From Scardovia wiggsiae F0424 (GTDB lineage Bacteria; Actinomycetota; Actinomycetes; Actinomycetales; Bifidobacteriaceae): DNA of 64,000 nt. A program made the translations under genes and the position numbers. The stretch covers positions 930,001 to 994,000 of the forward strand of contig NZ_AKCI01000001.1 of assembly GCF_000269605.1 (NCBI RefSeq), in the 5' to 3' direction. The notes under the pieces were generated by a model, which worked only from the letters and a program-made list of their open reading frames with translations, ran no database searches and had not been told where the DNA came from. Shown one piece after another: positions 22,191-25,480 of the stretch; position 1 is the stretch's first letter, and each line of letters begins with the position of its first letter.

Positions 22191-22260
22191 GAGCGCAAGG
22201 TTAGCGGATTCTGGCCCTGTCCTGAAGTTATTTTGCCCAATGTGGTCGAATAAGGAACCC

Positions 22261-22343
22261 CTGGTGGTAAAACACGCAGATATAAAAACAAAAAATGTGG
22301 AAACTGCCGAAACCATTTTTGTATCTGCGTGTTTTACCACCAG
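22261..22343. repeat. Long inverted repeat (28-bp arms) before the DUF559 gene
   Basis: Arms 22261-22281 and 22323-22343 are exact reverse complements (starting CTGGTGGTAAAACACGCAG), and pairing continues with one mismatch or wobble to about 22288/22316. The loop is about 27 nt. It sits between the divergent DUF559 and copper ATPase genes. No T tract of the usual length follows on either strand. A small repeat element or a regulatory structure is possible. Confidence 0.8.
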
Positions 22344-22690
22344 CGGTTTTCAGACAACCTCAATTTATAGGTTTCAGATAATCCAAATCCCACAGGAAAG
22401 AAGGCCCGCTAAGTTGTTAGGCTGCGAGAGGGCCGGGCCTTATGCGGCACCGAATCTCCGCAAAAGGGAACATCTGGACCGGGAAACCGAGGCCGGCATG
22501 GCACAAATTTTCACGCAAAATGAATGGCTTTGGCTGCGAACCAGCTGCACTGTCTTTAGCCTTAAGCCCAAAGGCGAACTGCGGAATGGAATACGCTATG
22601 CGCGCAGTTTACAGGTGTGGATTGTTACACAGATGCGAACCGTTACAGATGTGGACCGCCGGTAACATACAGCAGCACAAGGAGTACATT
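22344..22690. other. Noncoding 5' region of the copper ATPase
   Basis: About 350 bp with no convincing gene. It holds the long inverted repeat's right flank, a weak stem pairing AAGGCCC (22401-22407) with GGGCCTT (22435-22441), and the cop-box-like sites near 22610-22653. Open frames here have no start signal and do not look coding. Confidence 0.6.
22610..22653 (+). promoter_or_regulatory. Two cop-box-like sites (TACAnnTGTg) at the copA promoter
   Basis: TACAGGTGTG at 22610 and TACAGATGTG at 22644 each differ at one position from the CopY/BlaI cop box TACAnnTGTA. A possible promoter has TTGTTA (22622-22627) and TACAGA (22644-22649) with 16 bp between, so the second site overlaps the -10 box. 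The spacing between sites is 34 bp. No copY-like gene is present in the window, so the regulator, if any, is elsewhere. Confidence 0.4.
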
Positions 22691-25267
22691 ATGGGAACTG
22701 CCATTACGGTTATCACGATAGCAGCCGCCGCGGCGCTCAGCGTTTTTATCCTCTGGTTCTTCTTCTCCCCCGGCAAGGCTGGGCATGCGGCCGTTGAAGG
22801 GAAACGCCAGGTGGCACAGATAACAGTTAAAGGCGGATATTCCCCGGCACTTGTTGAAGTAAAGGCCGGCATGCCCGTGCAGCTGGTCTTTGACCGGCAG
22901 GAAACGGGCGAATGCACTTCGCACGTTGTATTTTCCGATCTTGGCATTGATGCGCATCTTCCCGGGAATAAGGAAACTTCGGTTGACCTGCCTGCGCTTG
23001 ATCCGGGGGATTACCCTTTCGCCTGCGGGATGAATATGGTACATGGGATGCTCCGTGTCTCAGGGAAAAGTACAAATAGGGAAAACACGGACGCCGCCAC
23101 TGAGGAAGACACAAATGCCGCTGAGGAAGGTACAGGTACTAACGCCAGGAAAAGTGCGGATTCCGCCGCCGGGAAGAGTAGCAGCACAAATAACATAAGC
23201 AACATAAATAATGCAGGCGGCACAAACGCCGTACACACGCCGGAAACGCACAGCACCCGCTCCCCGATTGACCGGCAGAATACCGAAGAGGAAGAACGCA
23301 TCCAGGAAATACGTGAACTCAAGCGCCTTATCCTTATTGGCGCTATCCTCACAACCCCTGTCTTTATTGCGGCTATGGGAAGTATGATCATATCCGGTAT
23401 GCCTGCGTGGCTTATGGATCCATGGTGGCAGGCCGTCCTCATCACACCCGTCATGTTCTACTGCGGCTGGCCGATCCACCGTATAGGCTGGCTTGCGATC
23501 GCCCACCGCTCCCCTGATATGAATTCCCTTGTTACAGCAGGCTCATTCGCAGCATATATATACAGCCTTGTTGTATGCATTGCGCCGCAGATACTCCCGT
23601 CCCAGTCCCGTACTGCGTATTTTGAGTCTGTGGGGGTCGTCATAACCCTGGTCCTTGTAGGGCGCCTTCTTGAAGCGCAGGCACGATCCGGTACAGGCAA
23701 CGCAGTCAAAACCCTGATCAATCTGCGCCCCCAGACAGCAATAAAAATCTCACAGTCAGATATTGACAGCGACATATGGCGCAGGCCGGATATCGGCACA
23801 ATAGTTCAGAGCACTGAAGGCGCAGCACAGAAACAGAAAATGCCTGATTCCGGCACCAGCGGCCCCTCCACAGACAGCTCCGCAATTGCCGTCACCGGCA
23901 GCGGTGAAGCAGATCCCGGATCGGAAGCCGGCGAAGGTACCAAAACCGGCGCAGGCAGCGGGATGGTCCAAATCATTGATGCCAATTCAGTCAGAACCGG
24001 CGACCTGCTCGTCGTCAAAGGCGGGGATACCGTCCCAAATGACGGGATCATTGTAGCCGGTGAGAGTGATATCGACGAATCTATGATAACCGGTGAATCC
24101 CAGCCTGTGCACCGCCGTCCGGGAGACCAGGCGACCGGGGCAACACTGGCCCTTGATTCCCCTATCGTTATCCGGGTAAACAGGACAGGCCGCGACACCG
24201 TCCTCTCCCAGATCATCGACCTTGTGTCCCGCGCGCAGGCCACCAAGGCACCGGTACAGAAGCTTGCCGACCGGATTTCCCGCGTATTCGTCCCCGTCGT
24301 CTTCCTGATCGCCATATGGACATTTGCCGCATGGTCCATCATCGGTCCTCAGCCTCGGCTGGCCCATGCTGTAGTTACTGCGGTCAGCGTAGTCATTATC
24401 GCCTGCCCGTGCGCACTTGGGCTTGCTACCCCGCTGTCAGTCACGATCGGGATGGGGCTTGGTGCACGCAACGGCATCCTGATCACAACAGCGCATGCCC
24501 TGCAGGATGCGCGCCGGATCGGCACGGTTGTTTTCGATAAAACAGGTACGATAACGCGCGGCATAGCCCAGGTGAAGGGCAATGGGAATGAAGGCAGCAA
24601 GGGCGGAGAAAGCGGCAATATCAGGGATAATAAAAGCAGCAGAAACCATACTGAGTTCTCATACAGCAACGATGAGATCAGGCCCTCTGCTCCGGCAGCT
24701 GTGCGGCAGCTCCACGCACTGGGGATCAGGACCATCCTGCTGAGCGGGGATAAAAAGGAAACTGCACAGGATATCGCGGAAAAAGTTGGAATTGACACGG
24801 TCATTGCCGAGGTGCGGCCCGACGGCAAGGCTTACTGGATAGAGCGCATACAAAATGAGATCTATGATAATAGCCGTGCCGGAGGCAGCAGAAACCGCGG
24901 TAAAACACTGGTCGCCATGGTTGGTGACGGCATCAATGATGCCCCGGCACTGGCTCAGGCAGATATAGGCTTCGCTATTGGGACAGGCACCGATATCGCC
25001 ATGAGATCGGCAGATATCACGCTTATGAGCGGCGACCTGCAGGGGGTGGCGCGGACTGTTGCCCTGTCCCGCGCAACCATGCGCAATATCAGGCAAAACC
25101 TGTTTTTTGCTTTCGCCTACAACATTATTGGCATCCCTCTCGCAGCAGGCGTCCTCTACCCGCTGGCCGGATGGCTTCTCAGCCCTATGATTGCAGGTGC
25201 AGCCATGGCATTGTCATCGGTATGCCTCGTGCTCAACGCGAACCGTTTGCGCCACGCCGCCATATAG
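22691..25267 (+). CDS. copA: Copper P-type ATPase with N-terminal cupredoxin domain and shortened nucleotide-binding region
   Basis: Exports Cu(I) across the membrane. 858 residues from the ATG with AAGGAG eight bases upstream. After one TM (about 3-25) comes a cupredoxin-like domain (about 42-123, with CGMNMVHGMLRV), a Ser/Asn-rich linker, then the P1B core: TGES (about 465), CPC (about 571, IACPCALGLATP), DKTGT (about 615), GDGINDAP (about 745), and the Cu(I) motifs YN and MxxSS in the last TMs. Between DKTGT and the SGDKKETA motif only about 70 residues remain, and no HP motif is seen; the nucleotide-binding domain appears replaced by a short Gly/Asn/Ser linker. No metal-binding CXXC domain is present. 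Confidence 0.85.
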   Translation: MGTAITVITIAAAAALSVFILWFFFSPGKAGHAAVEGKRQVAQITVKGGYSPALVEVKAGMPVQLVFDRQETGECTSHVVFSDLGIDAHLPGNKETSVDLPALDPGDYPFACGMNMVHGMLRVSGKSTNRENTDAATEEDTNAAEEGTGTNARKSADSAAGKSSSTNNISNINNAGGTNAVHTPETHSTRSPIDRQNTEEEERIQEIRELKRLILIGAILTTPVFIAAMGSMIISGMPAWLMDPWWQAVLITPVMFYCGWPIHRIGWLAIAHRSPDMNSLVTAGSFAAYIYSLVVCIAPQILPSQSRTAYFESVGVVITLVLVGRLLEAQARSGTGNAVKTLINLRPQTAIKISQSDIDSDIWRRPDIGTIVQSTEGAAQKQKMPDSGTSGPSTDSSAIAVTGSGEADPGSEAGEGTKTGAGSGMVQIIDANSVRTGDLLVVKGGDTVPNDGIIVAGESDIDESMITGESQPVHRRPGDQATGATLALDSPIVIRVNRTGRDTVLSQIIDLVSRAQATKAPVQKLADRISRVFVPVVFLIAIWTFAAWSIIGPQPRLAHAVVTAVSVVIIACPCALGLATPLSVTIGMGLGARNGILITTAHALQDARRIGTVVFDKTGTITRGIAQVKGNGNEGSKGGESGNIRDNKSSRNHTEFSYSNDEIRPSAPAAVRQLHALGIRTILLSGDKKETAQDIAEKVGIDTVIAEVRPDGKAYWIERIQNEIYDNSRAGGSRNRGKTLVAMVGDGINDAPALAQADIGFAIGTGTDIAMRSADITLMSGDLQGVARTVALSRATMRNIRQNLFFAFAYNIIGIPLAAGVLYPLAGWLLSPMIAGAAMALSSVCLVLNANRLRHAAI

Positions 25268-25334
25268 CTCCGCTATAAGATATTTTGTATACAGCTCCGG
25301 CAGACAGCTGGCTGTGCTATAAGTACGGTAAAGC

Positions 25335-25414
25335 GCAGTTACTGGCTGCTGCAACTGCAAGCAGTGTTGTGGATCCCGATCAGCTTTTCGGGCTGAGGCA
25401 GCCAGTTGCACTGC
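25335..25414. repeat. Imperfect inverted repeat between copA and ltrA
   Basis: GCAGTTACTGGCTGC (25335-25349) and GCAGCCAGTTGCACTGC (25398-25414) pair with a small internal mismatch. They flank a short hairpin around CAGCTTTTCGGGCTG. It could end copA transcription or act in the ltrA leader; the region also holds a TATAAT at 25420-25425 that may be the ltrA -10 box. Confidence 0.5.
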
Positions 25415-25480
25415 AGTTATATAATAACGCATAGTTTCTGATATCGGCATAACCTTTTCCCTGTATGAAAGGACACACTT

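Follow-up and report, generated by a model that had tools for sequence, protein, structure and literature searches.

In P-type pumps, the N-domain holds ATP and the P-domain performs the chemistry. To our knowledge, every P-type ATPase is considered to need three cytoplasmic domains, of which the N-domain is one, and our literature searches, for which subscription papers were largely beyond reach, found no description of a P-type ATPase clade without an N-domain. Amongst the P1B-1 Cu(I) ATPases, a CxxC heavy-metal-binding domain is common, though not universal. Here, we describe a copper pump of Scardovia wiggsiae F0424 that carries neither, encoded in a stretch of 64,000 nucleotides (contig NZ_AKCI01000001.1, positions 930,001 to 994,000) that we call the window and from whose first letter all positions are counted.

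A cupredoxin-fused copper ATPase without an N-domain

The open frame spans positions 22442-25267 on the forward strand, where all features of the protein lie, and its likely start is the ATG at 22691, six bases downstream of an AAGGAG at 22679-22684. The product of 858 residues (22691-25267), identified as a cupredoxin-fused copper P1B-type pump by domain matches, TIGR01511 and an AlphaFold2 model, consists of one membrane helix, a Cupredoxin_1 domain (residues 19-121, 22745-23053; PF13473, E=1.3e-19), a hydrophilic linker and the copper P1B-type ATPase body. The cupredoxin domain stands where the usual CxxC metal-binding domain would be. In addition to an E1-E2_ATPase domain match (E=1.3e-50), the protein scores 492.3 bits against TIGR01511 (442.3 in the genome search), above the cut-off of 397, and a genome-wide search found it to be the only S. 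wiggsiae gene above this copper-ATPase cut-off. Because the cut-off is passed, annotation pipelines would label such genes, referred to here as N-less, ordinary heavy-metal ATPases.

The original prediction that this copper ATPase lacks its nucleotide-binding domain is borne out by motif spacing, a gap in the TIGR01511 alignment and a partial match to Pfam PF00702. Only 69 residues, in place of the roughly 150 of an interval with an N-domain, separate D616 of the phosphorylation motif DKTGT (616-620, 24536-24550) from the third motif (685-687, 24743-24751), and D to GDG takes 129 residues, compared to 198 in N-domain-bearing Actinobacterial relatives, where SEHPL is present; an [S/C]EHP motif is absent from the pump protein. 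TIGR01511 aligns at model positions 87-280 and again at 356-542, leaving 281-355 unmatched, and PF00702 is matched only over 95-191 versus 1-191 in the N-domain-bearing relatives. The interval is occupied by a low-complexity, mostly disordered Gly/Ser/Asn linker (AQVKGNGNEGSKGGESGNIRDNKSSRNHTEFSYSN; residues 625-660, 24563-24670, delimited by alignment and pLDDT) that includes the conserved Y658 and falls below pLDDT 50 at residues 635-652. Thus the short Gly/Ser/Asn-rich interval first described after DKTGT stands, at 69 residues where about 71 had been counted, with its closing motif corrected from TGD, the form found in N-domain-bearing relatives, to SGD. The rest of the machine was described as intact, and we indeed find the dephosphorylation motif TGES (467-470, 24089-24100), the CPC copper site (572-574, 24404-24412), DKTGT, the Mg/hinge motif GDGINDAP (745-752, 24923-24946) and MxxSS as MALSS (839-843), the last joined by a further transmembrane copper-site motif, YN (810; together 25118-25219).

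In its membrane, A and P portions, the AlphaFold2 model of the whole pump (mean pLDDT 78, weak at linkers 129-188, 376-421 and 635-652) superposes on copper ATPases: 530 residues align with 7r0g_B at Z 23.1 and rmsd 3.8, and the whole-model alignment to 4bbj gives Z 23.0 over 512 residues at rmsd 6.5. For a Bifidobacterium thermophilum homologue, the compact P-domain without N-domain is predicted to fold at pLDDT 85 and matches the CopA P-domain of 4bbj (Z 24.7, 175 aligned, rmsd 3.6), with a weaker likeness to YrbI/KdsC-type capless HAD phosphatases (Foldseek E about 1e-10).

We also looked at the surroundings of the gene. The pump protein ends before the C-terminal YHS domain found in most relatives, and positions 25200-25480 of the window hold no in-frame YHS remnant 3' of the stop. 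Upstream of the gene, at 22256-22348, lies a 33-nt inverted repeat with arms that are 94% complementary and 27 nt apart. The arm core, TGGTGGTAAAACACGCAGATA, occurs in 21 copies per strand genome-wide, nearly always paired about 60 nt apart, and a reversed-pattern control gave 0 occurrences in the genome; we read the repeat as a dispersed, MITE- or REP-like palindromic element. No known RNA family was found near the pump gene. A CsoR-type repressor was searched for in the S. wiggsiae genome and not found; copA has a CsoR neighbour in L043 and L102 as well as in several relatives with the N-domain.

Distribution of the N-less layout

After removing duplicates, we compared 50 N-less and 25 N-domain-bearing proteins. 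Distances from the phosphorylated D to [ST]GD form two non-overlapping groups, 48-85 residues in the N-less proteins (n=49) versus 152-207 in the N-domain-bearing ones (n=24), a split far beyond chance. Within the N-less group the median is 48 residues, a value taken exactly by 28 of the 49, and the linker of the window protein is a longer version of the usual one. A profile of the N-less catalytic region matches 57 of the 189 family genomes searched, spread over 4 of 16 genera. Protein searches of the family and of named genomes gave homologues with this layout, the named genomes being Bifidobacterium thermophilum, boum, apri, moraviense and goeldii and Alloscardovia macacae, criceti and omnicolens. 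N-domain-bearing relatives were obtained from 21 family genomes, none of which overlaps with the 57.

Outside the family, the searches covered genome samples of the phylum, order and class as well as plasmids, the chromosomes of other phyla lying beyond their scope. A DNA pattern run over 396 genomes of the phylum, which recovers just 29 of 60 known N-less loci and misses the window's own gene, found no N-less form outside the family. With the N-less profile, matches amongst 297 genomes of the order were confined to family members, and the window's gene was the sole match amongst 394 genomes of the class. Two apparently contiguous matches in the order search, G843 and G807, both turned out to carry the N-domain. 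A tblastn search of 72,556 plasmids likewise gave no N-less form, the best 40 rows all being two-piece matches with an N-domain-sized gap.

A single loss followed by purifying selection

In a tree computed without the N-domain columns, and with other Actinobacteria lying outside, the N-less proteins group together as a single clade (support 100), nested inside the N-domain-bearing forms and requiring one change of state. Its stem branch is long, at 1.03 changes per column. A second tree omitted L051, a long-branched HMA-type CopA found beside a cupredoxin copA. The gene order TrmH, hypothetical, (RmuC), copA, ClpB recurs, though not always exactly, in the window, in Alloscardovia, in the same-genus relative and in Bifidobacterium genomes; copA is near ClpB in g12, and RmuC adjoins copA also in two N-domain-bearing genomes (L103, L110). 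Because the N-less proteins are a single clade with conserved synteny, we attribute the layout to a single loss of the N-domain inherited over a long time, which the sequences place in a Bifidobacteriaceae clade of putative Cu(I)-exporting P1B-type pumps.

Pairwise Nei-Gojobori dN/dS values of 0.04-0.27 across the A-domain/TM4, P-domain and C-terminal parts indicate that the gene is under purifying selection. By regular expression, TGES, CPC, DKTGT and GDGxND are each present in 50 of 50 N-less homologues, [ST]GD and YN in 49 and MxxSS in 44; CxxC occurs in only 2. The N-less pump is therefore probably a working protein, and the suggestion that it may be inactive becomes unlikely, given these dN/dS values and catalytic and metal-site motifs that vary little or not at all amongst 50 distinct homologues. 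A comparison with relatives, proposed at the outset, finds the N-less layout in all of these homologues. The sequences themselves establish that the N-domain is missing, that this state is conserved and that the remaining motifs are kept.

An artefact or decay, whether a collapsed assembly, a recent deletion or a pseudogene, would be suggested by the odd layout itself and by G187, whose match is interrupted by two stop codons in its N-terminal part. We regard this explanation as vanishingly improbable. Assembly collapse or a private deletion, the earlier thought that a segment had been lost, is ruled out by the occurrence of the layout in 57 genomes, several of them single-contig, with D to SGD so often exactly 48 residues, and a pseudogene is ruled out by open frames, low dN/dS and motif conservation; the shared layout, single origin, synteny, purifying selection and kept motifs together lead us to reject all three.

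Individual homologues show further variation. In the same-genus nearest relative (G187, loci L008/L114), the two stops are in-frame TAA codons and the open frame is without a cupredoxin domain, which may have been lost or split. Two Bifidobacterium genomes (L012 and L009) carry a long insert after SGD and before GDGIND, that of L012 holding near-repeated copies of an 'SGMTKE..ARAHGTHDAQ'-like unit; judging from these inserts, the SGD-GDGIND loop tolerates large expansions.

Residue changes in the P- and A-domains

To identify residues that distinguish the two groups, we compared 30 N-less rows with only 8 N-domain-bearing rows. Residues fixed in the former and differing in the latter are F615, Y658, S685, T703, G712 and W716, which cluster in the P-domain. 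The third motif begins with S (685) in 30 of 30 N-less rows and with T in 8 of 8 N-domain-bearing ones. G712 and W716, constant in the N-less group alone, flank the catalytic Lys713 in PDGKAYWI (710-717, 24818-24841), and GKAxWI is invariant across 27 P-domain rows. Together with the long stem, these group-specific changes in the active region of the P-domain suggest retuning after the loss.

The A-domain differs as well. Only the N-less group has an insert there, of at least about 11 residues and with a fixed Trp (W363 in 30 of 30 N-less and 0 of 8 N-domain-bearing rows), which in the window protein is lengthened and disordered (residues about 363-426, 23777-23968; pLDDT<50 at 376-421). While TGES is found in 50 of 50 N-less proteins, it is present in only 12 of 25 N-domain-bearing relatives, which often have TGEP, indicating that the A-domain changed together with the loss of the N-domain.

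What might power an N-less pump

Small donors that need only the P-domain are known to work in other P-type ATPases. SERCA can use acetyl phosphate 'like ATP' to transport Ca2+ (PMC7961605), and blocking the nucleotide site of H+,K+-ATPase with FITC leaves the enzyme able to hydrolyse acetyl phosphate and p-nitrophenyl phosphate (PMC4215238). Bifidobacterial phosphoketolase converts F6P and X5P to acetyl phosphate (PMC5315409), and a phosphoketolase is encoded in the S. wiggsiae genome (XFP_N, E=1.4e-189). Based on these P-domain-only donors and the presence of phosphoketolase, we tentatively propose, at somewhat less than an even chance, that the N-less proteins are a conserved Cu(I)-exporting clade that has kept the phosphoenzyme cycle and feeds it with a small phosphodonor, most plausibly acetyl phosphate, of which these bacteria produce large amounts. 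Copper would enter via the cupredoxin domain and the CPC site. D616 of the P-domain would receive the phosphoryl group directly from a small donor needing the P-domain alone, for which acetyl phosphate, a product of the phosphoketolase ('bifid') shunt, is the most plausible candidate. The A-domain TGES would then dephosphorylate E2P, as in other P-type pumps. We infer the fuel, the transport direction and the copper specificity in this scheme. In its broader form, it is possible, though open to real doubt, that this is a lineage of P-type pumps that gave up ATP and exports copper directly at the expense of bifid-shunt acetyl phosphate, or of another acyl phosphate, its P-domain working like a self-phosphorylating capless HAD that draws on a metabolite. 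Metabolism alone does not predict the loss, since the members that keep the N-domain also come from this acetyl-phosphate-making family.

The use of another ATP site, raised in the original prediction, is possible, but we think that a non-ATP phosphodonor, which it did not mention, is the most likely answer. The P-domain might accept ATP, or a different NTP, directly but with low affinity, millimolar cellular ATP being enough for slow copper efflux; every phosphoryl-transfer residue is retained, the P-domain fold is predicted to be intact and detoxification would not demand a fast pump. In P-type pumps, however, affinity for ATP comes mostly from the N-domain, and the short linker of compact homologues shows no conserved adenine-binding feature, so that we consider direct ATP use unlikely. 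Nucleotide binding might instead be supplied in trans, by a diverged or unrelated domain or by another P-type ATPase that lends its N-domain within a complex. To look for such a source, we searched 24 N-less genomes and six controls with an N-domain profile (E<=0.01). Other N-domain-bearing P-type ATPases occur in some N-less genomes, including S. wiggsiae, and an unrelated partner would escape such profile searches; nevertheless, 9 of the 24 genomes gave no match at this threshold while controls scored 5e-31 to 4e-50, and there is no conserved extra flanking gene, the neighbours being TrmH, hypothetical, RmuC and ClpB. All matches in N-less genomes lay inside long ATPase-sized frames (639-820 residues), with no recognisable free N-domain in a small open frame in any of the 24. 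We judge supply in trans quite improbable.

Having lost an ATP-binding domain, the protein might no longer pump and serve as a copper sensor, storage or leak protein, its phosphorylation site kept for regulation, for instance by an inorganic phosphate or acetyl phosphate signal; the cupredoxin domain, and in most relatives a C-terminal YHS domain, could bind copper. Yet TGES, CPC, YN, MxxSS, DKTGT and GDGxND form the full set for alternating access and are kept together, the gene is the sole one above the copper-ATPase cut-off in its genome, and a second P1B N-domain was not found in nine tested genomes, which makes a non-pumping role improbable. As a passive channel would not need DKTGT, TGES, CPC and GDGxND, their presence in 50 of 50 homologues favours a phosphoenzyme cycle.

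The acetyl-phosphate reading predicts possible parallels in heterofermentative lactobacilli. More broadly, a selected, monophyletic N-less group poses the question of what the N-domain is for. Its pumps give structural studies a catalytic core reduced to the minimum and make it possible to test whether metabolites other than ATP can drive primary active transport. Bifidobacterium and Alloscardovia species are amongst the carriers, which puts genetics and biochemistry within reach.

Comparison with known copper ATPases and HAD phosphatases

Compared to P1B-1 CopA (Legionella LpCopA 3rfu/4bbj, Archaeoglobus CopA 3a1c), the pump shares the membrane core, the A-domain TGE, CPC, DKTGT, GDGxND, YN and MxxSS, and phmmer aligns it with LpCopA 3rfu at E=2.7e-133. 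Unlike CopA, it has no N-domain or SEHPL, a cupredoxin replaces the CxxC domain, SGD stands for TGD and the A-domain carries an insert. Amongst P1B-1 features, we thus find a TIGR01511 score above the curated cut-off, DKTGT, TGE, [ST]GD and GDGxND, and CPC with YN and MxxSS, while the N-domain with HP (SEHPL) and the N-terminal CxxC heavy-metal-binding domain are absent. The pump descends from P1B-1 copper ATPases and is a non-canonical member, and its motifs suggest that it probably runs the P1B-1-type phosphoenzyme cycle. Capless HAD phosphatases (YrbI/KdsC) resemble its P-domain in having neither cap nor N-domain and act on small phosphorylated molecules, but they are soluble hydrolases, unlike a membrane pump, and share 18-22% identity. 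The closest relatives are Actinobacterial cupredoxin/YHS-type copper ATPases with an N-domain (L048-L050, L072-L088), which share the cupredoxin start and membrane core; most have a C-terminal YHS, and CsoR adjoins several. They differ in their N-domain with SEHP and D-to-TGD distance of 152-207 residues, and the window protein is also without the YHS domain.
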